From assembly GCA_003819715.1 (NCBI GenBank), contig RPQN01000025.1, positions 1-33,466 of the forward strand: DNA of 33,466 nucleotides, in the 5' to 3' direction. This stretch comes from Ignavibacteriota bacterium. GTDB taxonomy: Bacteria; Bacteroidota; Ignavibacteria; UBA10030. Made by a program: the position numbers and the translations under genes. The notes beneath the pieces were generated by a model, which had not been told where the DNA came from, searched no databases, and saw only the letters and a list, made by a program, of their open reading frames with translations. Positions 3,104-18,775 of this stretch are shown here, piece by piece (position 1 is the first letter of the stretch; every line of letters begins with the position of its first letter).

Positions 3104-3230
3104 CAACATCGTCCTTCATCATATTATTGATGCTTCCAGTATTTCACTATGATGAACTTATTTATTTCCTGAACGATGCGCAAGAAATAATTCGTTATCC
3201 TCCTGTAAAACTATTGTAAACGAAAAGTAC

Positions 3231-3929
3231 ATGGCCACTGCAGGAAAATCTATACTTATTGTTGATCCGGAAACAGAAATATCTTCGATGCTGTTCAGCG
3301 TTCTTTCGCAGGATGGATATTGTGTGACATCCGCCTCCTCCGGCACGGAAGCGTTGAACCACCTGCAGTATTTGCCCGATCTCATCATCCTTGATCCACA
3401 ACTACCGGATATGAATGGATTGGACATTTTTCATGTTATCAAACAAAAACCCGAATTACACAATGTTCCTGTATTCATTCTGAGTTCAAAGGAAACAGAG
3501 ATAGATGAAATTATTAGCCTTGAAATCGGCGCTGATGATTATATCACGAAACCTCTGCAGGTACCACGGTTGAAAGCCCGGATACACGCCCTTTTTAGAC
3601 GGCAGGATCAACAGATCACCACTCAGGAAAATGAGACTGATATGATTACGATCGACGATCTTTCGATCCTGATTCCGCAATTTACAGTAGTCTGTGGAGA
3701 GGAATATATCGGATTTTCTAAAAAGGAATTTGAGATTCTCGTACTCATCGCAAAGAACCATGGACGGGTAGTGACGCGTCAGACGTTATTTCATACGATC
3801 TGGGGTCATGATGACAACTCAGCCAACCGAACAATAGATGTACATATTGGCCGCATACGAAAGAAACTAAAAAGCTATGCACATTACATCGAGACAGTGC
3901 CCGGTATCGGGTACCGGCTTCGCCAATAG
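3231..3929 (+). CDS. OmpR/PhoB-family response regulator (orphan)
   Basis: This 232-residue two-domain regulator has a receiver at about residues 6-120 and a winged-helix DNA-binding domain at about 140-232. The phosphoacceptor Asp is in DLIILDPQLPDMNG, the switch Ser in VFILSSKE and the conserved Lys in DDYITKP. The usual acidic pair near the N-terminus is DP rather than DD (ILIVDPETE). The C-terminal domain has the family pattern SKKEFEILVLIAKNHGRVVTR, RTIDVHIGRIRKKL and TVPGIGYRLR. No histidine kinase is adjacent and none is in the window. PhoB-family regulators bind 11-bp-spaced direct repeats, and such repeats occur upstream of the pst operons here, so this is a plausible but unproven Pho regulator. 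No strong ribosome site precedes the ATG. Confidence 0.9.
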   Translation: MATAGKSILIVDPETEISSMLFSVLSQDGYCVTSASSGTEALNHLQYLPDLIILDPQLPDMNGLDIFHVIKQKPELHNVPVFILSSKETEIDEIISLEIGADDYITKPLQVPRLKARIHALFRRQDQQITTQENETDMITIDDLSILIPQFTVVCGEEYIGFSKKEFEILVLIAKNHGRVVTRQTLFHTIWGHDDNSANRTIDVHIGRIRKKLKSYAHYIETVPGIGYRLRQ

Positions 3930-6947: not shown

Positions 6948-7080
6948 AGCACATGCTCCGGCGATTTCTCTGATATTACGAAAAATATAGAGTGAAAGTT
7001 CCAGACCGTCATTTAAAGATACGATATCAGCACATGGGCTTCCATCTCTCCAATATCCGCCATCCCATCCCATTCCAATC

Positions 7081-7109
7081 TTAACAATTTGATAACCAAA
7101 CGATTAACT
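7081..7109 (+). promoter_or_regulatory. Possible Pho box of pst operon 1
   Basis: Three TTAACA-like hexamers lie here: TTAACA (7081), ATAACC (7092) and TTAACT (7104), spaced 11 and 12 bases. The pattern resembles the much clearer array upstream of pstS2. It lies between the divergent phosphatase gene and the first small ORF of operon 1. The irregular last spacing keeps confidence moderate. Confidence 0.4.
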
Positions 7110-7128
7110 TCCGGCAATGTTCATTTTC

Positions 7129-7136
7129 GATATTTG
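7129..7136 (+). promoter_or_regulatory. Bacteroidota-type -7 element (GATATTTG) for operon 1
   Basis: GATATTTG differs from TAnnTTTG at one base and lies 41 bases upstream of the ATG at 7177. No clear -33 TTG-type element is seen, which is compatible with an activator-dependent promoter using the upstream repeats. Confidence 0.4.
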
Positions 7137-7176: not shown

Positions 7177-7332
7177 ATGAAACAATGGATATCAGCCCAC
7201 ATTTTATCTGCCGAAGAATTGAGACTGGAAGAAAATATTCCCATCAGCAACCAGGAGTTCTTCCTCTCCTTGAGCTTGGTCGGTATCGCCCTTGCATTCT
7301 TTGGGATTATCATTCGAGTATTCGGAGCTTAA
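7177..7332 (+). CDS. 51-residue single-span membrane protein, leader gene of pst operon 1
   Basis: ATG 7177 is preceded by AAAGGAG at ideal spacing, much better than the track's start at 7117. The product begins MKQWISAHILSAEELRLEEN, then NQEFFLSLSLVGIALAFFGI forms one transmembrane helix, ending IIRVFGA. It matches no family I recognise. It precedes a second, similar mini-gene and the porin, downstream of a possible Pho box. This suggests a phosphate-starvation-induced small membrane protein; the role is unknown. Confidence 0.65.
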   Translation: MKQWISAHILSAEELRLEENIPISNQEFFLSLSLVGIALAFFGIIIRVFGA

Positions 7333-7341
7333 TGCAGCCCC

Positions 7342-7518
7342 ATGATAACAAACACAAATCAGAATGCCCGGCAAAGGCCATTGCTCATTCGGCATATCGT
7401 CGACCTGTTCGGCCGCGACGAAATGCAAGAAGTTGAAATTCAACGATCAACCGATGGAGAATATTTTCTCTTTCTCGGCTTAATTGCACTTGCGCTGTTC
7501 ATCCTGTGCTCTCTTTAA
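7342..7518 (+). CDS. 58-residue single-span membrane protein, too short for the ORF track
   Basis: This frame opens with ATG at 7342, only 9 bases after the previous stop, and ends with TAA at 7516-7518. It encodes MITNTNQNARQRPLLIRHIV then LFGRDEMQEVEIQRSTDG and a C-terminal hydrophobic helix (EYFLFLGLIALALFILCSL). The hydrophobic end resembles that of the preceding gene (EFFLSLSLVGIALAFFGI), suggesting the two are paralogues. The ribosome site is weak (GGAG about 15 bases upstream), so translation may be coupled to the first mini-gene. An internal ATG (MQEVEIQ) is an alternative start. Confidence 0.5.
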   Translation: MITNTNQNARQRPLLIRHIVDLFGRDEMQEVEIQRSTDGEYFLFLGLIALALFILCSL

Positions 7519-7612
7519 TGGATGCATCACCATCTTTATGAAATCGTTTTTCTACTGATAACAAAATAACTTAATCCATAACAATCACATATATATAAAG
7601 GAATAAATACAT

Positions 7613-8758
7613 ATGAAGAAGATGCTAGCAGTTTCTACACTTCTCATTCTTCTTGGATTAACGACTGCCGTTGGTCAAGGAAAATTCAGCGGTTACATGT
7701 TCGGGGATTACTATTATAATGTAGGGCGGGACGCAAGTATTCCGAGCTCGAACATCGCCAGCCCGGCTGGGACAACTGCGTATCAAGCATTCCAATTACG
7801 CCGCATTTACTTCGCGTACGATAACGATATTTCCGAGCAATTCACCACTCGCTTCCGTCTTGAAGCCGATCAGGCAGCTGCCACAAGTGCTCCAACCGCT
7901 TCGGGCGATGTTCTTCCCAGCGGCAAGGTCGGTGTATTTGTGAAAGACGCGTACTTGATGTGGAAAAATGTTTTCGGCGGCAGCAATCTGATTTTCGGCG
8001 TCCAGCCGACTCCCGCCTATGATGTTTCAGAGGGAGCGTGGGGATACCGGTCGCTTGAAAAGACGATTATGGATTTGCGCGGGACAGTTCCTTCGCGCGA
8101 TCTCGGAATTTCGTTAAAAGGAAAAATTACGAGCGACGGAATGATCAATTACTGGGCAATGTTTGCTAATGGAAGCGGCAACAATGTGGAAATAGATAAA
8201 TACAAACGGTACTATGCCCATATTCAATTGAAACCCGTGACGAATCTTCAGGCCACACTCTACGTCGATTACAAAGATGCAGTGGATATTCTCAATACTT
8301 ACACAAAAAATACTGTCAGCAACAGCGCGGTAACAACTGCGTTGTTTCTTGGATACAGCGAGCCGTTCAGTTATAACATCGGCGTCGAAGCTTTTGTACA
8401 ATCCATTTCTAATGCTCTCAAGGATACATCCGCAAAATCCTATGCGGCAAAATCCACTATGGGTTTCTCTGTGTTTGGCTCTTATAACATCCTGCCTGAG
8501 CTTGCAATTGTTGCCCGTTATGACAATTTCAACCCAAGCACGGACGACAAGGGAAAAGATCCCGTTGCAGTCACCGCCGCTGTCGCAAATGCGAATTTAT
8601 CCCGCAATTATATTATTGCCGGATTTTCATGGAAAGTCGACAAGAACGTCTCAATTATGCCCAATGTTTTGTATGAGACCTACGAAACACCGAAGGGCGG
8701 AAAAGCGATAAATGCTTCTACGACTGCTCGTCTCACCGCATATTATGTTTTTCTCTAA
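7613..8758 (+). CDS. Outer-membrane porin, phosphate-selective porin O/P-like
   Basis: This 381-residue protein has a signal peptide (MKKMLAVSTLLILLGLTTAVGQ). The body of alternating hydrophobic beta strands has features of the Porin_O_P family: FQLRRIYFAYDNDISEQFTTRFRLEAD near the N-terminus, YLMWKNVFGGSNLIFGVQPTPAY, and a terminal strand ending in an aromatic/hydrophobic pair (TARLTAYYVFL). Porins of this type form outer-membrane channels, with OprP/OprO of Pseudomonas selective for phosphate and polyphosphate. Placement directly before pstSCAB supports a role in bringing phosphate into the periplasm; selectivity is inferred, not shown. A perfect hairpin separates it from pstS1. An AAAGGA site lies 10 bases before the ATG. 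Confidence 0.85.
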   Translation: MKKMLAVSTLLILLGLTTAVGQGKFSGYMFGDYYYNVGRDASIPSSNIASPAGTTAYQAFQLRRIYFAYDNDISEQFTTRFRLEADQAAATSAPTASGDVLPSGKVGVFVKDAYLMWKNVFGGSNLIFGVQPTPAYDVSEGAWGYRSLEKTIMDLRGTVPSRDLGISLKGKITSDGMINYWAMFANGSGNNVEIDKYKRYYAHIQLKPVTNLQATLYVDYKDAVDILNTYTKNTVSNSAVTTALFLGYSEPFSYNIGVEAFVQSISNALKDTSAKSYAAKSTMGFSVFGSYNILPELAIVARYDNFNPSTDDKGKDPVAVTAAVANANLSRNYIIAGFSWKVDKNVSIMPNVLYETYETPKGGKAINASTTARLTAYYVFL

Positions 8759-8770
8759 TCAATAATTATT

Positions 8771-8802
8771 AGAATCCCGAAGTCTGGTGATTTCGGGATT
8801 CT
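8771..8802 (+). promoter_or_regulatory. Perfect 11-bp stem-loop between porin and pstS1
   Basis: AGAATCCCGAA (8771-8781) pairs perfectly with TTCGGGATTCT (8792-8802) around a 10-base loop. No T-run follows, so it is more likely an mRNA-processing or stability element, or a partial attenuator, than a full terminator. The pstS1 ribosome site (AAGGAG) begins 7 bases after the stem. Confidence 0.55.
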
Positions 8803-8820
8803 TAACCTAAGGAGATGAAG

Positions 8821-9852
8821 ATGAAATTTACAAAGATATGTATGAGTCTGGCGCTTGTGGTGGTCCTTTTCGGCACTACGCTTGCACAGATGAAACTTAA
8901 TGGCGCTGGTGCCACATTCCCGTACGTCATTTATTCAAAATGGTTCGACGTGTACAGCAAACAACATGGCGTGCAATTCAATTATCAATCTATTGGCAGT
9001 GGTGGCGGCATCAAGGCGGTGACAGATGGAACAGTAGACTTTGGTGCTTCCGATGCCGCGTTGTCTGATGGACAATTGAATACCATCAAAGAAAAGCAAG
9101 GATCAGATGTCCTGCATATACCAACCGTAATGGGCGCAGTGGTGGTGACGTATAACCTTCCGGGAGCAGGCAAAGACCTTCGCTTGTCTCCAGATGTACT
9201 TGCTAAAATTTTTCTCGGTCAGGTGAGAAACTGGAATGACCAATCGATCGCCCAGATCAATCCGGGAAAAACCCTGCCCAATGTACCGATTATCGTTGCG
9301 CATCGTTCGGACGGAAGCGGCACAACAAATATCTTCACGGATTATTTGAATAAGGTCAGCAAAACGTGGGCCGTGAATATTGGCAAAGGGACATCGGTCA
9401 ACTGGCCGATTGGTCTTGGCGGTAAAGGGAACGAGGGGGTTGCCGGTTTGGTGAAACAATCGGAAGGCGCAATAGGATATGTCGAATTAGCCTACGCTGT
9501 CCAAAACGGATTATCGTATGCTTCCATGCAAAATAAAGAAGGGAACTTTATCGTACCAAATTTTGACGCGGTTTCGGCTGCAGCTGCAGGCGTATCGAAG
9601 AATATGCCGGAGGATTTCCGTATCTCTTTGACTGATGCACCGGGAAAAGATTCTTATCCTATCAGCGGATTTACCTGGTTGTTAATCTACAAAAACATGA
9701 AAGACAAGGGAAAAGCGCAGGAGATTGTCAGGTTTTTGAAATGGGCAATGGAGGATGGTCAATCCTACGCGAAAGATCTTTATTATGCGCCGCTGCCGAA
9801 GGATGTCGTTAAACTGTGCGAAAAGAAAATTAACACGATCGTCACGAATTAA
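8821..9852 (+). CDS. pstS: Periplasmic phosphate-binding protein PstS (copy 1)
   Basis: This 343-residue protein has a signal peptide (MKFTKICMSLALVVVLFGTTLAQ) without a lipobox, so it is a soluble periplasmic protein. Classical PstS phosphate-pocket motifs are present: GAGATFPYVIYSKW, SIGSGGGI, VDFGASDAAL and RSDGSGTTNIF. It delivers inorganic phosphate to the PstCA channel. ATG 8821 was chosen because AAGGAG sits 6 bases upstream; the track's ATG at 8815 touches the ribosome site. Stem-loops on both sides could make this the most abundant segment of the operon transcript. It differs strongly from PstS2, which is a lipoprotein of a different subtype. Confidence 0.95.
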   Translation: MKFTKICMSLALVVVLFGTTLAQMKLNGAGATFPYVIYSKWFDVYSKQHGVQFNYQSIGSGGGIKAVTDGTVDFGASDAALSDGQLNTIKEKQGSDVLHIPTVMGAVVVTYNLPGAGKDLRLSPDVLAKIFLGQVRNWNDQSIAQINPGKTLPNVPIIVAHRSDGSGTTNIFTDYLNKVSKTWAVNIGKGTSVNWPIGLGGKGNEGVAGLVKQSEGAIGYVELAYAVQNGLSYASMQNKEGNFIVPNFDAVSAAAAGVSKNMPEDFRISLTDAPGKDSYPISGFTWLLIYKNMKDKGKAQEIVRFLKWAMEDGQSYAKDLYYAPLPKDVVKLCEKKINTIVTN

Positions 9853-9904
9853 TTTCGCAGAATAGTTCCTTGGGTGGAAACACCGACTATGACTGCGCAA
9901 CGGC

Positions 9905-9938
9905 CGGGTGGTGACAAACGGTGGATTGTTACCACCCG
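9905..9938 (+). promoter_or_regulatory. 13-bp stem-loop between pstS1 and pstC1
   Basis: CGGGTGGTGACAA (9905-9917) pairs with TTGTTACCACCCG (9926-9938), with one G-U pair and an 8-base loop. It lies 52 bases after the pstS1 stop and before the pstC1 ATG. Such intercistronic hairpins commonly protect upstream mRNA or reduce read-through, matching the need for excess binding protein over channel subunits. Confidence 0.6.
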
Positions 9939-9955
9939 TTGTTCTATCAGAGATC

Positions 9956-10879
9956 ATGAGACAAACAAACATCAATATTGGGGACAGAATATTTAAGAAC
10001 ATGACAATGTTCTTTGCGATTATTGTGTTCGGACTTGTATTCCTTATGGCATACGAGATGATCCGTGGATCAGAATTATCACTTCAAAAGTTCGGATGGA
10101 AATTTCTGAGCGGTACCGTGTGGGACCCGGTTGCGGATGTGTACGGGGCTCTTCCCTATATCTATGGCACATTGACTTCCTCCTTTTTGGCAATGGTATT
10201 GGCATTTCCATTAAGCATCGGGATTGCAATTTTTCTCTCCGAACTCGCACCTCCATGGATCGAACGCCCTGTTTCCTTTATGGTCGAACTGCTTGCCGCC
10301 ATTCCAAGTATTGTGTACGGTCTCTGGGGAATATTCGTTCTTGTGCCGTGGCTGCGCACGTCTGTCGAGCCATTTCTTATCAAACATCTTGGCAGCCTGC
10401 CTTTTTTCAAAGGTGCGCCGTACGGATTTGGTATGCTCGCAGCAGGAATAATATTGGCCATTATGATACTCCCTATCATCTCCTCTATTTCACGGGATGT
10501 GCTCCGGGCAATTCCAAACTCGCAGCGGGAAGCTGCCCTTGCCATTGGCGCAACAAGATGGGAATCGACAAAGATCATCCTTGCTGGCGGAAAATCCGGC
10601 CTTCTCGGCGCGGCATTGCTCGGCCTCGGCCGCGCCGTCGGCGAAACGATGGCAGTCACGATGGTGATCGGCAACCGGGCTGAAATCTCCGCGTCACTTC
10701 TTGATCCGGGCCATTCCATGGCAAGTGTCATCGCAAACGAATTTGCCGAAGCAACGACAGCGCTGTATTCAAGCTCTCTTATAGAGATTGCACTCATTCT
10801 CTTTGCGGTTACGATTATTCTGAATGTTATTGCACGATTGATTGTCTGGAGTATCACCAAGAAATTTAAAACGACATGA
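9956..10879 (+). CDS. pstC: Phosphate ABC transporter permease PstC (copy 1)
   Basis: This 307-residue protein has about six hydrophobic helices and the EAA loop that contacts the ATPase ([20 protein letters not shown]), followed by GLGRAVGETMAVTMVIGN, all characteristic of PstC. It forms the inner-membrane channel with PstA. The start is ATG 9956 (MRQTNINIGD); the track's GTG at 9908 falls inside the intercistronic hairpin and adds an implausible extension. The stop overlaps the start of pstA1 by 4 bases (ATGA), implying translational coupling. Confidence 0.93.
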   Translation: MRQTNINIGDRIFKNMTMFFAIIVFGLVFLMAYEMIRGSELSLQKFGWKFLSGTVWDPVADVYGALPYIYGTLTSSFLAMVLAFPLSIGIAIFLSELAPPWIERPVSFMVELLAAIPSIVYGLWGIFVLVPWLRTSVEPFLIKHLGSLPFFKGAPYGFGMLAAGIILAIMILPIISSISRDVLRAIPNSQREAALAIGATRWESTKIILAGGKSGLLGAALLGLGRAVGETMAVTMVIGNRAEISASLLDPGHSMASVIANEFAEATTALYSSSLIEIALILFAVTIILNVIARLIVWSITKKFKTT

Positions 10880-11739
10880 AGAAAATAAATTATGAAAAAT
10901 ATCATTGGCGGAAGATAAAAAGCACAACGATGACCGCGCTTTCCATCATGAGCGTTGTCATTGCTGTTATTCCGCTGTTTCTTATTTTCTTTTATACGCT
11001 TGCACAGGGAATCAGCGCTCTGAATCTCGATTTCTTTATTCACATGCCAAAGCCCGTCGGCGAAACTGGCGGCGGTATGGCAAACGCACTAATGGGAACT
11101 GCAATTCTCATCGGGTTAGGATGCCTCTTCGGATTGCCCGTCAGCATTTTTGCCGGCATCTACCTTGCAGAGCATGGCAATAACACGTTCGGGCAAATAG
11201 TAAGATTTTTCACCGATGTTCTCAGCGGCATTCCCTCCATCGTCGTTGGTGTCGTTGCATATATTTTAGTTGTCGTTCCGATGAAACAATACTCAGCGCT
11301 TGCAGGAGGTGTCGCACTCGGTATTCTCATGATCCCTACAGCCACTCGCACCACGGAAGAAATGATCCGGCTTGTACCTCACTCGCTGCGGGAAGCTGCG
11401 CTGGCAATCGGCCTCCCGCAATGGAAAACGACCTTGAGAATTATTCTCCCGACCGCGCTGAAAGGCATAACGACCGGTGTCCTTCTTGCCATCGCCCGTG
11501 CGGCGGGCGAAACTGCACCGCTGCTGTTTACTGCGCTGGGTAACCGGTTCTGGTCAACCGATCTCGGTCATCCCATGGCATCGTTGACCGTTTTTATTTA
11601 CGATTATGCTAAGGCTCCATTTGAAGACTGGAACAGGCAGGCCTGGGGCGCGGCATTTGTACTGATCGTACTTATTTTCATCGTCAACATGACGTTCCGT
11701 TTTGTCACCCGCGGGCGTTATGGTGATCATCAGAATTAA
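10876..11739 (+). CDS. pstA: Phosphate ABC transporter permease PstA (copy 1)
   Basis: This 287-residue inner-membrane permease has the PstA pattern: an N-terminal transmembrane helix, then [51 protein letters not shown], an EAA loop ([22 protein letters not shown]) and [18 protein letters not shown]. It pairs with PstC1. It overlaps pstC1 by the ATGA tetranucleotide, and pstB1 follows after 10 bases. Confidence 0.93.
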
Positions 11740-11749
11740 GGGAACCGTA

Positions 11750-12547
11750 ATGATAGAGACCCTCCAAAAGTTTTCACCAGCAATTGTATCACATAAAATG
11801 GACCTCAAACTCGAAGCGAAAACCGTAAATGCCTTCTTTGGAAAAACACAGGCATTGCAAAATGTATCACTCTCGATAGAAAAGAACCATGTCGTCGCAA
11901 TCATAGGTCCATCCGGCTGTGGCAAGTCGACGTTTCTTCGATGCTTGAATAGAATGCATGAAGTGGCAGGCGGAACGATGAACGGAACTATTTTGCTCGA
12001 TGGCAAAGATATTCACGAGAATGACCCGGTGAATCTCAGGCGGCGGGTCGGCATGGTATTTCAAAAGGCCAATCCCTTTCCGACGATGTCGATCTTTGAC
12101 AATGTCGCCGCCGGTCTTCGGTTGAACGGCATGGCACACAACGGCCATATTGCGGAGATAGTTGAACGAAGCCTTCAGCAGGCAGCACTCTGGAATGAAG
12201 TGAAGGATTCACTTTCAAAAAACGGCATGAGCATTTCCGGAGGGCAGCAGCAGCGCTTATGTATCGCCCGCGCCCTTGCCGTCAATCCGGAAGTACTTCT
12301 CATGGATGAACCTGCCAGCGCGCTCGATCCCATCCCAACAGCAAAAATTGAAGAATTGATTTATGAGTTGAAGAAGGACTATACTATCATCATTGTAACA
12401 CACAACATGCAGCAGGCGGCGCGCGTGAGCGATGAGACAGCGTTCTTTTATCTGGGTGAAATCATTGAATTTGACAATACGAAGAAAATCTTCACTGCGC
12501 CGTCGATCAAGCAAACGGAAGATTACGTTACGGGAAGATTCGGATAA
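11750..12547 (+). CDS. pstB: Phosphate ABC transporter ATPase PstB (copy 1, all motifs intact)
   Basis: This 265-residue ATPase has a complete motif set: Walker [11 protein letters not shown]-loop in [12 protein letters not shown], signature SISGGQQQR, Walker B VLLMDEP, D-loop SALD and H-loop VTHNMQQAA. It should therefore work as an ordinary PstB homodimer, in contrast to the pair in operon 2. The start is ATG 11750 (MIETLQKF), preceded by AAGGGA; the track's start at 11702 lies inside pstA1. The protein has about 20 extra N-terminal residues before the typical PstB start. Confidence 0.95.
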
Positions 12548-12562
12548 GGAAGAGGAATTATT

Positions 12563-13225
12563 ATGGAACGGCATTTTCAGCATGAGCTCGAAGGCGTAAA
12601 AACAAATCTCATCAAAATGGGAAGTGCTGTTGAAGAAAACATTAACAATGCGGTCATTGCAATTCTGGAGCGGAATGAAGTCATTGCAGCAAAGGTGATC
12701 GAGAGCGACAAACGAATCGATACACTCGAAATCGAGATAGACAATGCGATCATCGATATGCTGGCACTGCAGCAGCCGGTCGCGAGCGATCTCCGATTTA
12801 TTATTGCGGCACAAAAGATCAATAACGATCTCGAGCGCATCGGCGATCATGCCGTCAACCTTGCTGAATCAGCATTGACACTCCAGAAAAGCAAGAAATT
12901 GGAATCACTTTTAGAGATTCCTCAGATGGTCTCGGCAACGAAACTGATGCTGAAGTATGCCCTTGATAGTTTCATCCTCCTCGACCCAAAAATGGCGCGT
13001 ATAGTGCTGGAAACGGATGACCAAATCGATGAGTGGAATCGTTCTATGACAACGAACGTCATTGAACTTTTAAAAAACGATAAACAGTTGATCGAACCAG
13101 GCCTTGCACTCATCCGTATCAGCCAAAATCTGGAACGTGTGGCAGATATGGCCACAAATATTGCAGAAGAAGTAATTTTTCATATACAAGCACTGGTCGT
13201 AAAGCATCACGCCGAAGAGATATAG
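12563..13225 (+). CDS. phoU: Phosphate-signalling protein PhoU (copy 1)
   Basis: This 220-residue all-helical protein is built of two PhoU three-helix repeats with the characteristic metal-binding E/DxxxD motifs, for example DTLEIEIDNAIIDMLALQQP, ASDLRFIIAAQKINNDLERIGDHAVN and ISQNLERVADMATNIAEEVIF. PhoU links Pst transport state to the PhoR/PhoB two-component system and to intracellular phosphate homeostasis. It is the last gene of operon 1, 15 bases after pstB1, with AGAGGAA as ribosome site. It is very similar to PhoU2. Confidence 0.95.
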   Translation: MERHFQHELEGVKTNLIKMGSAVEENINNAVIAILERNEVIAAKVIESDKRIDTLEIEIDNAIIDMLALQQPVASDLRFIIAAQKINNDLERIGDHAVNLAESALTLQKSKKLESLLEIPQMVSATKLMLKYALDSFILLDPKMARIVLETDDQIDEWNRSMTTNVIELLKNDKQLIEPGLALIRISQNLERVADMATNIAEEVIFHIQALVVKHHAEEI

Positions 13226-13308
13226 GGCCGGGCTCTCCTCATTCCTTTTTTCCTCCTTTGCTTAGCCGTTATTCGGTGAATCTGCCTGATATCTGTCCAC
13301 TCTATTTG

Positions 13309-13347
13309 TTAACAATTTCTTAACACCACTGTTACAGAATGTTTACC
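13309..13347 (+). promoter_or_regulatory. Pho box: four hexamer repeats at exact 11-bp period
   Basis: TTAACA (13309), TTAACA (13320), GTTACA (13331) and TTTACC (13342) are spaced exactly 11 bases apart, so they lie on one face of the helix. PhoB-family sites in other phyla have the same 11-bp periodicity, and the hexamer resembles the Bacillus TTAACA-type and cyanobacterial CTTAACCT-type boxes. The last repeat abuts the -7 element of the pstS2 promoter, as expected for an activator site replacing the -33 element. Confidence 0.75.
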
Positions 13348-13355
13348 TATATTTG
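13348..13355 (+). promoter_or_regulatory. -7 promoter element TATATTTG of pst operon 2
   Basis: TATATTTG is a perfect match to the Bacteroidota -7 consensus TAnnTTTG. It lies 48 bases upstream of the pstS2 ATG and immediately after the Pho box. A transcription start near 13362 is expected. Confidence 0.65.
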
Positions 13356-13403
13356 AAACATAAAATATCGAACAATATGACCATACTGTAAAGGAACATT
13401 CAA

Positions 13404-14288
13404 ATGACTAAATCAACCAGCATTATCGTTTCAGCCGTGCTCGGGCTGCTGCTCTTCAGCGGGTGTGCGCGGAAAAGCGGTGATCAATCGAATTCCGTGC
13501 AAATTAAAGGTTCCGATACCATGGTGAACCTCGGCCAGGCTTGGGCAGAAGCGTATATGAAGCAAAATCCCGGCATGTCCATTGCCGTGACCGGAGGCGG
13601 ATCCGGAACCGGTATTACCTCTCTCATTAATAATACGTGCGACATTGCAGAAGTGTCGCGTGAGATGAAGCAGAGCGAAGTCGATCTCATCGCATCTAAA
13701 GGCGCGGCCCCATTGAAACTGATCGTTGCCCTGGACGGCCTTGCGGTTGTGGTCAGCCCTGAAAATAAAATTTCTGAACTGACGATAGACCAGCTCGCCG
13801 ATATATTCACCGGAAAAATCAAGAACTGGAAAGAACTCGGCGGGCGGGATGCAAAGATTGTCCTCCTCTCAAGGGAAGTAAATTCCGGGACCCATGTGTA
13901 TTTTAAAGAACACGTCCTCCGCCATGGCAAATCCGACGGCAAGGAAGAATTTGCAGCAGAAGCGCTGCTCCTCTCAAGTTCACAGGCCATTGCCGACGAG
14001 GTATCGCAGAACCAGGATGCCATCGGCTATTACGGAATGGGGTATATCACCTCGAAAGAAAAAGCGCTGAAGGTTGCGAAGGATAAAAATTCTCCTTTTG
14101 AAGCTCCGACGATGGAGAACGTTATCAGCGGCGCCTATCCCATCTCGCGGCCGTTGCTGATGTATACCAAAGGCGATCCAAAGGGATTGGCAAAAGCATT
14201 TATCGATTTTGTGCTTTCTTCTGCAGGCCAGGAAGTGGTGAAGAAGCTGGATTTTGTGCCGGTGCAACCCCTGAAACAAAGTAAGTAA
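13404..14288 (+). CDS. pstS: Phosphate-binding lipoprotein PstS (copy 2)
   Basis: This 294-residue protein has an N-terminal lipoprotein signal with lipobox LFSGC (Cys21), so it should be membrane anchored. Binding motifs are VQIKGSDTMVNLGQAW, TGGGSGTGITSLINNTCDIAEVSR and LSREVNSGTHVYFKEHVL, typical of the shorter PstS subfamily seen in Gram-positives, archaea and cyanobacteria. It starts operon 2 behind a clear Pho box. The two PstS proteins in the window are not recent duplicates, which suggests different affinities or locations. Confidence 0.94.
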   Translation: MTKSTSIIVSAVLGLLLFSGCARKSGDQSNSVQIKGSDTMVNLGQAWAEAYMKQNPGMSIAVTGGGSGTGITSLINNTCDIAEVSREMKQSEVDLIASKGAAPLKLIVALDGLAVVVSPENKISELTIDQLADIFTGKIKNWKELGGRDAKIVLLSREVNSGTHVYFKEHVLRHGKSDGKEEFAAEALLLSSSQAIADEVSQNQDAIGYYGMGYITSKEKALKVAKDKNSPFEAPTMENVISGAYPISRPLLMYTKGDPKGLAKAFIDFVLSSAGQEVVKKLDFVPVQPLKQSK

Positions 14289-14295
14289 CGCCGAA

Positions 14296-15168
14296 ATGCA
14301 CCTGCGAAAAGTAAAAGAGTTCATCATCGAACGGATGATTTTCCTCAGCGGCATCATGTCGATTATCATCGTCGCGTTGATTTTCATTTTTTTGCTCAAG
14401 GAAGGGCTGTCTATTTTCTGGAGGGTTCCGATTTCTGATTTTTTATTCGCGCGCAATTGGTACCCGATATCCGATCCCCCGCAATTCGGCATCCTGCCTC
14501 TCATCCTCGGATCGATTTTAGTCACGGCCGGGGCGGGAGTGATTTCCATTCCCATTGGAATCGCCAGCGCGCTTTTTATCGCAGAGATTGCCCCGCGTAA
14601 AACCAAGGAGGTTCTGAAAGCGGGCATCGAACTTCTTGCCGCAATTCCCTCCGTCGTGATCGGGTTTATCGGAATGGTGACGCTCGGCCCGTTTATAAAA
14701 GATCTCTTTCATCTATCAACCGGGCTCACAGCGCTTTCCGGGTCTATTACGCTCGCATTCATGGCGATGCCCACCATTGTGTCCATCGCCGAAGATGCCA
14801 TTACAGCGGTCCCCCGCCAGTACCGTGACGCTGCCATCGCCATGGGTGCAACAAAATGGCAGACCACGTGGCGCATTGTCGCCCATGCGGCGCGCCCCGG
14901 AATGGTTGCAGCCGTGATGCTCGGTATCGGCCGCGTGATCGGCGAGACGATGGCCGTCATGATGGTCACAGGGAATGCCGCATTAATACCGCATAGCATT
15001 CTTCAACCGGTGCGCACGTTAACGGCAACGGTTGCCGCGGAAATGGGCGAGACCGTGCAGGGCGGCGAGCATTATGCAGCGCTGTTCGCGATCGGTATTG
15101 TGTTATTCATTATTACATTCCTTATAAACGGCGTTGCCGATATTTATCTTCATAAAACAAAGAAATAA
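14296..15168 (+). CDS. pstC: Phosphate ABC transporter permease PstC (copy 2)
   Basis: This 290-residue inner-membrane permease has PstC motifs: IELLAAIPSVVIGFIGMVTLGP, the EAA loop (YRDAAIAMGATKWQTTWRIVAHAA), and GIGRVIGETMAVMMVTGN. It begins 7 bases after pstS2. It is clearly homologous to PstC1 but diverged, so operon 2 is not a simple recent duplication of operon 1. No strong ribosome site is seen, which is compatible with coupling to pstS2. Confidence 0.93.
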   Translation: MHLRKVKEFIIERMIFLSGIMSIIIVALIFIFLLKEGLSIFWRVPISDFLFARNWYPISDPPQFGILPLILGSILVTAGAGVISIPIGIASALFIAEIAPRKTKEVLKAGIELLAAIPSVVIGFIGMVTLGPFIKDLFHLSTGLTALSGSITLAFMAMPTIVSIAEDAITAVPRQYRDAAIAMGATKWQTTWRIVAHAARPGMVAAVMLGIGRVIGETMAVMMVTGNAALIPHSILQPVRTLTATVAAEMGETVQGGEHYAALFAIGIVLFIITFLINGVADIYLHKTKK

Positions 15169-15186
15169 GATTTCCGGAATGATGAG

Positions 15187-16032
15187 ATGAACGTTCAGGT
15201 TGAACAAAAGATTGCATTCAGTATCCTCTTTCTCTGCACGCTGCTGGTGGTCGTGCCGGTACTGATCATTCTCGTCATCATCTTCGTGAAAGGTGCGGGC
15301 GCTCTCAATCTGGGGTTTTTATTTGAGATGCCCACGAATGGGATGACCGAAGGCGGAATTTTCCCGGCAATTTTAGGCACGTTGTACCTTGTCCTCGGAG
15401 CGCTCTTTTTTGCCGTGCCGCTCGGCGTCCTCTCTGCAATTTATCTCGTGGAGTACTCGCAGGAAACAGTGCTCAGCCGGATCGTGAAACTGGCCATTGT
15501 GAATCTTGCCGGAGTCCCATCGGTCGTGTACGGACTTTTCGGTCTGGGCATTTTTGTACTATTTTTAGGATTCGGCGCCTCTATCCTCTCCGGTTCGCTG
15601 ACGCTGGGTATTATGATCCTGCCGGTGATTATCACTTCATCCCGCGAAGCCCTGGAAAGTGTCCCGCAATCCTTCCGCATTGTCAGTTTATCACTCGGGG
15701 CGAGCAAATGGCAGACCATCCGGCATTCTGTCCTCCCACATGCGCTTCCCGGAATTCTTACAGGAACCATTCTCGGTATTGGAAGGGCTGCAGGGGAAAC
15801 CGCTCCGATTCTCTTCACCGTTGCCGCTTTTTATCTTCCAAAATTGCCGCAGTCCATGTTCGATCAGACGATGGCGCTTCCGTACCATTTGTACGTTATT
15901 TCCACGCAAGTCCCGGGCATACCGGAAACCATCCGTTACGGGACAGCCCTGGTGCTGCTGCTCCTGGTGCTGATCATGAATCTTGCCGCAATCATCCTCC
16001 GGTATCAATTTCGCAGGAGGAAAAAATGGTAG
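15187..16032 (+). CDS. pstA: Phosphate ABC transporter permease PstA (copy 2)
   Basis: This 281-residue inner-membrane permease has a first helix at about residues 10-33, AIYLVEYSQETVLSRIVKLA, AGVPSVVYGLFGLGIFVLFLG, the EAA loop (FRIVSLSLGASKWQTIRHSVLP) and [19 protein letters not shown]. It partners PstC2. Because PstC2 and PstA2 differ from each other, each could dock a different ATPase subunit, which fits the two unlike PstB proteins encoded next. Its stop overlaps the pstB2 start by 7 bases (ATGGTAG). Confidence 0.93.
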   Translation: MNVQVEQKIAFSILFLCTLLVVVPVLIILVIIFVKGAGALNLGFLFEMPTNGMTEGGIFPAILGTLYLVLGALFFAVPLGVLSAIYLVEYSQETVLSRIVKLAIVNLAGVPSVVYGLFGLGIFVLFLGFGASILSGSLTLGIMILPVIITSSREALESVPQSFRIVSLSLGASKWQTIRHSVLPHALPGILTGTILGIGRAAGETAPILFTVAAFYLPKLPQSMFDQTMALPYHLYVISTQVPGIPETIRYGTALVLLLLVLIMNLAAIILRYQFRRRKKW

Positions 16033-16787
16033 GGGCAAAAGCACCAAAATTTTCCATTCAGGATTTCACAATCCATTTCGGGAATGTTGCGGCGCTTAAA
16101 AATCTTACTCTCGATATATTCTGCAACGAGATTTTTACGATCATCGGCCCTGCAAATTCCGGAAAATCATCGCTCCTCCAATCGCTGAACCGTCTCAATG
16201 ATCTCAATGCAGCTTACCGGAAAAGCGGGAAGATACTCCTGGATGGGACCAATATCGACGAACTGGAGGTGGAATCACTCCGGAAACGCGTCAGCATTGT
16301 CTTTGCACTGCCATTCCCCCTCCCCCTGTCGATATTTGACAATATCGCGTACGGGCCGCGTATGCACGGGATAAAAAATAAAGCGAAGCTTGCAGGAATT
16401 GTCGAGAATAGTCTGCGCGAATCCTATCTCTGGGATGAAGTGAAAGACCGTCTGCACATTCCGGCCATGAATCTTTCGGGCGGCCAGCAGCAGCGCCTCT
16501 GCATCGCCCGGATTCTTGCCGTCGAGCCAGAAGTGATCATGTTCGATGAACCGACCTCCGGTCTCGATCCGATATCAACCGCGCGCGTCGAGGAAACCCT
16601 GCGCGTGCTGAAAGAACGGTATACCATTATCCTCGTGACCAACAATGTCGCACAGGCAGCGCGTGTAGGCGACCGGACGGCGTTTGTTCTCATGGGAGAA
16701 CTCGTCGAACTCAACGAGACCAAACGGCTGTTCACCACCGCTGTAGACAAACGGACGGATGACTACATCACGGGAAAATTCGGATAA
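16026..16787 (+). CDS. pstB: PstB-family ATPase with degenerate Q-loop and H-loop (PstB2)
   Basis: This 253-residue protein has a Walker A (GPANSGKSS, residues 41-49), a perfect signature LSGGQQQR (150-157) and Walker B VIMFDEP. The conserved Q-loop glutamine is alanine (VFALPFPLP, Ala94, codon GCA at 16305) and the H-loop histidine is asparagine (VTNNVAQAA, Asn206, codon AAC at 16641). In ABC ATPases these residues coordinate Mg/transmission and hydrolysis, so its own composite site should be impaired. ATG 16026 follows AGGAGG and overlaps the pstA2 stop; the track's long extension to 15708 is a pstA2 shadow. It is followed after 2 bases by PstB3, which carries the opposite lesion. Confidence 0.93.
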   Translation: MVGAKAPKFSIQDFTIHFGNVAALKNLTLDIFCNEIFTIIGPANSGKSSLLQSLNRLNDLNAAYRKSGKILLDGTNIDELEVESLRKRVSIVFALPFPLPLSIFDNIAYGPRMHGIKNKAKLAGIVENSLRESYLWDEVKDRLHIPAMNLSGGQQQRLCIARILAVEPEVIMFDEPTSGLDPISTARVEETLRVLKERYTIILVTNNVAQAARVGDRTAFVLMGELVELNETKRLFTTAVDKRTDDYITGKFG

Positions 16788-16789
16788 TC

Positions 16790-17548
16790 ATGAAAAAGTT
16801 GATCATTGAAACACGGCATCTCGATTTATTCTACGGCAGTTTTCAGGCGCTGACCGATATCAACCTCGGCATCGAAGAGAAAAATATTACAGCGCTCATC
16901 GGCCCTTCCGGATGCGGAAAATCAACTCTCGTGCGGGTCTTCAACAGAATGAACGATACGATCGAGGGCGTTCATACGAACGGCGAGGTGGAAGTCCTGG
17001 GTGAAAATATTTTCGGACCGGAAGCAGACCTCATCGCGCTCCGCCAGAAAGTCGGCATGGTGTTTCAGCGGCCCAATCCGTTTCCCTTGTCCGTCTACGA
17101 GAATATCACGTTCGGACTTGAAATCCATCACTCAAGGTCCAAAAAAGAATTTGGAGAGATGGTGGAACAATCGTTAACAGACGTCATGCTCTGGAACGAT
17201 CTGAAAGACCGCCTGGACCGCTCTGCGCTCCGGCTCTCCCTCGAGCAGCAGCAGCGGCTGTGCATCGCCCGCGTGCTGGCGATGAAACCGCAGATTATTC
17301 TCATGGATGAACCCTGTTCAGCGCTCGATCCGATTGCCACACTGCGGATTGAAGAGCTGATGCAGGAATTAAAGAGGAATTATTCGATTGTCATTGTGAC
17401 ACACAATATGCAGCAGGCGGCCCGGGCAAGCGACTATACGGCGTTTATGTATTTGGGCAATCTTATCGAATTCGGCAATACCAAAAGCATCTTTACGAAG
17501 CCCGTACAAAAGAAAACAGAAGAATACATCACTGGAAGATTTGGTTGA
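16790..17548 (+). CDS. pstB: PstB-family ATPase with degenerate signature motif (PstB3)
   Basis: This 252-residue protein keeps Walker [10 protein letters not shown] (38-46), Q-loop VGMVFQRPNPFP, Walker B IILMDEP, D-loop SALD and H-loop VTHNMQQAA. The ABC signature LSGGQ is replaced by LSLEQ (149-153, bases 17234-17248), losing both glycines that contact the gamma-phosphate in the partner's site. Paired with PstB2, which has an intact signature but defective Q- and H-loops, it would form one full and one dead ATP site. The gene starts 2 bases after pstB2, indicating tight co-expression. Confidence 0.93.
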   Translation: MKKLIIETRHLDLFYGSFQALTDINLGIEEKNITALIGPSGCGKSTLVRVFNRMNDTIEGVHTNGEVEVLGENIFGPEADLIALRQKVGMVFQRPNPFPLSVYENITFGLEIHHSRSKKEFGEMVEQSLTDVMLWNDLKDRLDRSALRLSLEQQQRLCIARVLAMKPQIILMDEPCSALDPIATLRIEELMQELKRNYSIVIVTHNMQQAARASDYTAFMYLGNLIEFGNTKSIFTKPVQKKTEEYITGRFG

Positions 17549-17564
17549 CAGGAGGAGAACAACA

Positions 17565-18035
17565 ATGGAACTGACCAAACATATTGCATTGGTCGCCCAT
17601 GATAACTGCAAAAAGGACCTGGTCGAATGGGTGGAATGGAACTGGAAAATACTGTTAAACCATAAACTTATCTGCACCGGAACCACCGGCCGGCTCGTAG
17701 AGGAAACCATCCTCAAAAGCCTCGAAAAAGATCATTCCATGAAGTACGACATTATGAAGCTCAAATCCGGACCGTTCGGCGGCGATCAGCAGCTCGGCGC
17801 TCTGATTTCGGACGGGCAAATTGATGTCCTGATATTCTTCTGGGATCCCATGCAGCCGCACCCCCATGATGTGGACGTCAAAGCACTGCTCAGAATTTCG
17901 GTGCTTTATAACATCCCGACCGCATGCAACAGATCTACGGCAGATTTTCTTATATCGTCGCATCTCCTGAACGATCCGTACATACAGAAGCTCACAGATT
18001 ATACGGAATATCTGGAACGCTCGTTGCCGTCATGA
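17565..18035 (+). CDS. mgsA: Methylglyoxal synthase
   Basis: This 156-residue cytoplasmic enzyme converts dihydroxyacetone phosphate to methylglyoxal and inorganic phosphate. It matches E. coli MgsA throughout: KHIALVAHDNCKKDLVEW, the phosphate-binding TGTTGRL, catalytic-Asp motif GPFGGDQQLGALI, and DVLIFFWDPMQPHPHDVDVKALLRISVLYNIPTACNRSTADFL with the catalytic His (PHD). A short insertion follows the TGTTG loop (LEKDHSMKYD). ATG 17565 is preceded by AGGAGGAG at 7 bases; the track's 17541 is upstream of that site. Its location between pstB3 and phoU2 strongly suggests Pho control. The family is inhibited by phosphate, so it would be most active during phosphate starvation. Confidence 0.95.
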   Translation: MELTKHIALVAHDNCKKDLVEWVEWNWKILLNHKLICTGTTGRLVEETILKSLEKDHSMKYDIMKLKSGPFGGDQQLGALISDGQIDVLIFFWDPMQPHPHDVDVKALLRISVLYNIPTACNRSTADFLISSHLLNDPYIQKLTDYTEYLERSLPS

Positions 18036-18097
18036 GGAAAGCAAACAAACGATTTTCTTAATTAAAGATTTGATGATCATGGACTGGAGACAGCATT

Positions 18098-18775
18098 ATG
18101 GAACGCCACTTTCAAAAAGAACTGGAAAGCCTTAAAACAGCACTCATTAAAATGGGAAGTGTCGTCGAGGAAAATATCGCCTCCGCGATCCGCACCGTCC
18201 TGGAAAAGAGCAACGGCCTTGCACAGAAGGTGATCGAAACAGATCAGCGCATTGATGCTCTGGAAATTGAAATCGATAACGCGGTGATCGATTTGCTTGC
18301 ATTGCAGCAGCCGGTGGCAAGCGATTTGCGGTTTATTATTGCAGCACAAAAGATCAATAACGATCTTGAACGGATCGGCGACCATGCAGTCAATATCGCG
18401 GAAGCCGCTGAAATATTACATTCGTTTCCCCAGTTTGAGATCCTGGAGGAAATTCCGAAGATGGCGGGTATCACGAAGTCGATGCTGAAAGATGCGCTGG
18501 ACAGCTTCATCCTGCTTGATCCGGTCAAAGCAAGGATGGTCATTACAACGGACGACCAGATCGACGACTTAAACCGGCTGGTTGCAAGAAAGATTATAGG
18601 ATGGGTGAAAACCAATACCCAGTCGATTGAATGCGGATTGGAGATGAGCAGAGTGAGCCGTGAATTGGAGCGGGTTGCGGATCTCGCCACCAATATCGCA
18701 GAAGAAGTAATTTTCCATACACAGGCGCGCGTCGTCAAGCATCATGCGGATGAGAAAGAACAGCCGGCATCATAA
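18098..18775 (+). CDS. phoU: Phosphate-signalling protein PhoU (copy 2)
   Basis: This 225-residue protein has two PhoU helical repeats. It is strongly similar to PhoU1 (MERHFQKELESLKTALIKMGSVVEENI; DALEIEIDNAVIDLLALQQPVASDLRFIIAAQKINNDLERIGDHAVNIAEAAEIL; ELERVADLATNIAEEVIFHTQARVVKHH). The N-terminal half is nearly identical between copies, while the middle differs. It ends operon 2 and has GGAG 10 bases upstream of its ATG. Two PhoU proteins, one per transporter, could give each Pst system its own signalling input. Confidence 0.95.
   Translation: MERHFQKELESLKTALIKMGSVVEENIASAIRTVLEKSNGLAQKVIETDQRIDALEIEIDNAVIDLLALQQPVASDLRFIIAAQKINNDLERIGDHAVNIAEAAEILHSFPQFEILEEIPKMAGITKSMLKDALDSFILLDPVKARMVITTDDQIDDLNRLVARKIIGWVKTNTQSIECGLEMSRVSRELERVADLATNIAEEVIFHTQARVVKHHADEKEQPAS

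Follow-up and report, generated by a model that had tools for sequence, protein, structure and literature searches.

Contig C48 of an Ignavibacteriota bacterium, analysed here over its whole stretch of 33,466 nucleotides (hereafter the window), carries two tandem pst operons, and its nearest named relatives by PstS2 are the Ignavibacteriota MAGs fen_1299 and fen_1287. Four similar hexamers precede the second operon and run directly into a promoter element. Is this array a Pho box and, if so, does it provide a consensus for the order, which regulator reads it, and how does it work with a promoter of the Bacteroidota type? A search of the open-access literature, outside which most subscription papers lie, yielded no Pho-box consensus published for either Bacteroidota or Ignavibacteriota.

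The pstS2 array and the consensus of the order

The array and the operon that it would control are composed as follows.

13309..13314, plus strand: repeat 1 of the putative Pho box, TTAACA, read directly, identical in all five compared congeners and the invariant part of the order-wide pattern
13320..13325, plus strand: repeat 2, TTAACA, read directly and recovered in the alignments of the congeners and of the order
13331..13336, plus strand: repeat 3, GTTACA, in register +22
13342..13347, plus strand: repeat 4, TTTACC, in register +33, abutting the -7 element here
13348..13355, plus strand: putative -7 element TATATTTG, of the TAnnTTTG type, without gap after repeat 4 and with 95% pairwise identity among five congeners
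13404..14288, plus strand: pstS2, at the head of this operon, with its ATG at 13404 (TIGR02136, 256.9 bits, above the cut-off)
14296..18775, plus strand: pstC2, pstA2, two PstB-type ATPases, an MGS-domain gene and phoU2, the rest of a probable operon, judging by spacing and common strand

A direct read thus confirmed the four hexamers, 11 bases apart and gapless up to TATATTTG, that the earlier note had described. The array covers 39 bases with an 11-bp period, and the spacer that follows repeat 1 (ATTTC) is conserved. Based on the position of TAnnTTTG elements relative to transcription starts (PMC9723704), the start of pstS2 would lie near 13360.

The earlier note had also proposed KTWACM-N5 repeats as a consensus. 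Exact three-repeat matches to KTWACM in the 4.03-Mb genome number only two, which overlap and both lie in the pstS2 array, but this pattern had been fitted to that very site and is not independent evidence by itself. With two mismatches allowed, a search of the genome gave 18 matches compared to 60 for the reversed pattern. This unenriched pattern was therefore dropped and replaced by a phylogenetically derived one, TTAACAATTTcnTAACA being common to the upstream regions of the pstS2 orthologues. The resulting search pattern, TTAACAATTYVDTAAYM, has 23 matches compared to three for its reversed form in 32 genomes of the family, and 73 compared to eight in 98 genomes of the order. The 73 order sites are distinct; 67 are outside long ORFs and 59 are non-redundant.

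TTAACAATTYVDTAAYM spans offsets 0-16 only and thus includes neither repeats 3 and 4 nor the -7 element. Among the 59 non-redundant sites, 28 nevertheless carry nTAAY at offset 22 and 35 carry it at offset 33, whereas no other offset has it in more than three; TAnnTT[TG] is found at offset 48 in 33 sites, compared to four at offset 39. These fixed offsets (22, 33 and 48) are independent evidence, at the level of sequence, for a four-repeat 11-bp operator followed 9 bp downstream by a -7 element. Direct repeats at 0, 11, 22 and 33 thus recur across the set, and the lineage consensus is cTTAACAATTtcnTAACA-N5-nTAAYn-N5-nTAAYn-N9-TAnnTTtG. Of the proposal made in the earlier note, the kind of box and the four 11-bp repeats stand, whereas KTWACM-N5, fitted to one site, does not. 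It should also be emphasized that repeat 4 of the pstS2 site (TTTACC) deviates from nTAAY, which is a point against reading the array as a Pho box.

We claim this consensus for the order, and its range is likely wider. Matches at the class and phylum levels include sites preceding genes for PstS, PhnD-like proteins, PhoB, Pit and porins. Three loci in further families of the class (L246, L247 and L248) have TTAACAATTTCTTAACAATTTCTTAACA as a perfect triple repeat in front of genes for PstS or PhnD-like proteins, which suggests such a wider distribution. Other matches at these levels appear unrelated, mostly those of a large Flavobacterium-like family. Flavobacterium-like matches at the phylum level (L203-L212) were not counted: their repeats are out of register, and they have unrelated neighbours or lie inside genes.

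Genes behind the boxes

Most intergenic matches in the order lie upstream of pst, porin, pit or phoB genes, which corroborates the enrichment in front of other phosphate genes that the earlier note had expected. Pfam scans of the downstream genes, which took in seven loci from other families of the class, identified PstS-type binding proteins (n = 14), PstC-type permeases (n = 11), PhnD-like proteins (n = 4), DUF47 Pit accessory proteins (n = 2), TonB receptors (n = 2), Pit (n = 1), PhoB (n = 1) and Porin_O_P (n = 6, a count that excludes porins unrecognised by Pfam). Three matches to GT4 correspond to a glycosyltransferase on the far side of a small membrane-protein gene.

A profile derived from 43 sites, all outside the genus of the window, gave only five matches at E <= 10 in the genome of the window. 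The best two of the 4-Mb genome start at 13307 (1.9e-5) and 7079 (2.2e-5), and are followed by C247:2308 (6e-4), C247:2619 (0.015) and a weak one (0.39). Boxes are thus found upstream of phosphate-starvation genes in this genome as well as in related ones. The match at 7079 reveals a second box in the window, absent from the earlier note, and that at C247:2308 adds an operon on another contig.

7081..7119, plus strand: putative second Pho box, TTAACA-ATTTG-ATAACC-AAACG-ATTAAC-TTCCG-GCAATG, upstream of the first pst operon and ranked second in the genome by the independent profile
7129..7136, plus strand: putative -7 element GATATTTG, located 9 bp after the second box, at the lineage-standard offset of +48
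7177..13225, plus strand: two small membrane ORFs, a porin, pstS1, pstC1, pstA1, pstB1 and phoU1, the probable first pst operon, judging by spacing and common strand
G000:C247 147-2284, minus strand: glycosyltransferase and calcineurin-like phosphoesterase operon, with its box at 2308-2363 (L135), adjoining a PhoB paralogue

Overall, four sites of the genome are convincing, namely those of both pst operons, of the glycosyltransferase/phosphoesterase operon and of a small membrane-protein gene. A match at C134:9099 lies inside a transporter gene and was therefore not considered as a promoter. In the family-wide profile search, 12 of the 14 newly found loci that were examined adjoin porin, pst, pit or co-regulated glycosyltransferase genes; at E <= 0.1, six of the 32 family genomes lack a profile match.

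At C247:2308, the repeats are TTAACA-AATCA-ATAACC-ACCCC-ATCATT-TTCCA-GTAATA, with TATATTG after a 9-bp gap. The best NCBIfam match of the glycosyltransferase that follows, below the cut-off, is N-acetylglucosaminyl phosphatidylglycerol synthase. In plcP clusters, phospholipids are replaced under phosphate starvation (PMC4796936), and the C247 operon fits such lipid remodelling, the activities of its enzymes being predicted ones. Since a PDB search with the co-regulated phosphoesterase gave no match, we only infer that this protein is PlcP-like.

Two other kinds of genes were observed at these loci. The MGS-domain (methylglyoxal-synthase-type) gene inside the second pst operon (17541-18035) has a homologue directly upstream of the pstS2 box in genome G005, and a phosphate-releasing bypass would fit the regulon. 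Furthermore, two small single-helix membrane proteins without Pfam match are encoded at 7177-7332 and 7342-7518 of the window, and similar proteins are encoded directly behind Pho boxes at L135 (2395-2580, minus strand), L143, L146 and L161. They have 51-68 amino acids and a loose pattern in common (NxP ... EF followed by a hydrophobic helix), and are encoded upstream of the porin in the first pst operon or divergently from a PhoB paralogue; they possibly constitute an undescribed family of Pho-regulated small proteins.

Promoter geometry

The norm of the lineage is four repeats, a 9-bp gap and TAnnTT. The 7081 box conforms to it, whereas the pstS2 site departs from it (0 bp), and the gapless join that the earlier note had included in its consensus is therefore not general. 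The gapless form was found in genomes G000, G005, G001 and G003, and a weaker form in G002; G004, from the same genus, has a -7-like element at about the standard distance. Among the five gapless congeners, that of the window included, identity is 79% over the box and -7 element, compared to 30% over the 43 bp upstream. The most conserved parts are repeats 1 and 2, repeat 4 (83% pairwise identity, against 30% for the flanks) and the -7 element. By this comparison, the fused arrangement is real and conserved but is a derived or alternative form, mainly of the pstS2 promoter of the genus.

These promoters have the TAnnTTTG -7 element of the Bacteroidota primary sigma factor and lack its -33 TTTG: none of the 38 aligned promoters carries TTTG at a -33-like spacing (17-23 bp spacers). 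Such an absence is expected if an activator substitutes for this element, and the box occupies the -33 place at a short fixed distance as the lineage norm. The suggestion of the earlier note that the box takes the place of the -33 element thus gains support. The fuller reading is that PhoB recruits the Bacteroidota-type polymerase through an operator replacing the -33 element throughout the order and that, at pstS2 of the genus, one protomer sits directly against the -7 element, closer than in described Pho promoters; taken as a whole, we regard it as tentative and rather doubtful.

In E. coli, the last Pho-box repeat precedes the -10 element by about 10 bp (PMC1906773). At pstS2, 11 bp separate repeat 3 from the -7 element downstream, which is close to this distance, so that repeats 1-3 could be sufficient for activation. 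At the gapless promoter, therefore, either repeats 1-3 do the work or the last protomer is unusually close to the start. The abutting position of repeat 4 also raises another explanation, namely that the pstS2 repeats are an operator for repression or mixed control, where the bound protein could block polymerase. Conservation of the gapless form within the genus, unlike the 9-bp norm, speaks for it. However, the target is a high-affinity phosphate transporter, the spacing of most other boxes of the lineage is activator-like and repeats 1-3 alone retain an activator-like distance to the -7 element, so that repression or mixed control seems improbable. The array is instead very probably a Pho box where a phosphorylated PhoB-type regulator would activate the pstS2 operon under phosphate starvation.

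Candidate regulators and comparison with known Pho boxes

The genome encodes six Trans_reg_C proteins. One of them, on C80 (802-1491), is followed by a PhoR-like kinase (1492-2934) that matches the WalK, PnpS and PhoR models below their cut-offs. With the NCBIfam Bacteroidota PhoB model, the C80 protein reaches 245 bits and its C247 paralogue 243, so that no PhoB protein of the genome passes the curated cut-off (270), although PhoB is the best NCBIfam match. A PhoB-type regulator with a partner kinase is thus present, and a canonical PhoB of the type adjoining a PhoR-like kinase is found in all six genomes of the genus. The profile scan detected no box for the C80 phoBR pair itself. The earlier note had designated another protein, encoded in the window.

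3231..3929, plus strand: PhoB-family response regulator, diverged accessory paralogue (194.8 bits with the PhoB model)

That this diverged regulator reads the box is even less probable than repression. It has an OmpR/PhoB-family DNA-binding domain, adjoins the pst genes here and has an orthologue on the same contig as pst genes in G005. However, G005 is the only one of five congeners with a close copy (68%), in which the phospho-acceptor Asp is replaced by Gly (NLIILGL); the protein of the window itself has a diverged acidic pocket (VDPE), and the congeners devoid of it keep both the boxes and the canonical PhoB. Because regulator 3231 is also lower-scoring, the canonical PhoB on C80 or its C247 paralogue is the more likely binder.

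The window (3231-3929) and L288 show a diverged PhoB paralogue of the pst locus that is losing its phosphorylation residues (VDPE here, Asp to Gly at the phospho-acceptor position in G005). Just upstream of the start codon of 3231, the minus strand carries TTTACA-ATAGT-TTTACA and weaker repeats (3193-3231), of which TCCTGTAAAACTATTGTAAACGAA is conserved in G005. These repeats were rejected as a Pho box: they score 5.5 bits in the profile scan, are on the wrong strand for 3231 and have only two repeats conserved in G005.

Within the window, runs of three or four [GT]T[AT]AC[AC] occur only at period 11 and only in the pstS2 array. None was obtained in 100 dinucleotide shuffles of the window, where pairs averaged 0.13, nor did three or four hexamers in a row appear when the 178-bp intergenic region was shuffled 20,000 times. 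AT-rich DNA is rich in TTAACA-like words and the loose two-mismatch KTWACM pattern is not enriched, but the shuffles and the strong footprint among congeners refute a chance, functionless repeat at the sequence level and, together with the association of the pattern with phosphate genes across the order, make its probability negligible.

The PhoB promoters of E. coli have their upstream promoter element replaced. In B. subtilis, PhoP boxes consist of TT(A/C/T)A(C/T)A with spacers of about 5 bp, and strong promoters have four of these repeats ahead of the -10 element. The present array resembles these PhoP boxes, but B. subtilis, listed among the organisms with such repeats (PMC4415409), has a Gram-positive sigma-A -10 element. 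It shares with the E. coli PhoB box (pstS, phoA), whose core is CTGTCAT-like (PMC4415409), the 11-bp direct repeats, a PhoB-family regulator and a position upstream of pst genes. Unlike E. coli, which has a sigma-70 -10 element, the lineage has TAnnTTTG, and the last repeat of pstS2 in the window has no gap to it. The nearest published consensus that we found is that of the cyanobacterial SphR boxes, which are also tandem TTAAC-core repeats: in Synechocystis, CTTAACCT, with 8 bp and a 3-bp linker making 11 bp, is present in at least three copies (PMC1906773). Spacer and flanks (cTTAACAATTtc here), sigma factor and promoter differ. The promoters of B. fragilis belong to the same -7/-33 class (PMC7366714). 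Its PhoB binds to a 512-bp fragment of the pst promoter, and pstC requires this regulator for its expression when phosphate is low; in contrast to the present array, we found no Pho-box sequence defined for that promoter (PMC3547664).

In the mechanism that we propose, phosphate starvation would lead phosphorylated PhoB, most likely that of C80 or its close paralogue of C247, to occupy the direct 11-bp repeats in head-to-tail orientation, with the four repeats probably accommodating two dimers. The bound protein would recruit RNA polymerase carrying a Bacteroidota-type primary sigma factor to TAnnTTTG, standing in for the missing -33 contact, and pstS2-pstCAB-phoU2 would be switched on.

The Pho box is a known kind of operator, while the consensus of the lineage and the geometry of its promoters appear to be new. 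As far as our literature search could find, this is the first Pho-box consensus for a little-studied order. Together with the profile, it can be used to read the phosphate regulons of uncultured members from sequence. Furthermore, these promoters, which lack the -33 element, are a clean natural system for testing how an activator of the OmpR family works together with the sigma factor of Bacteroidota.
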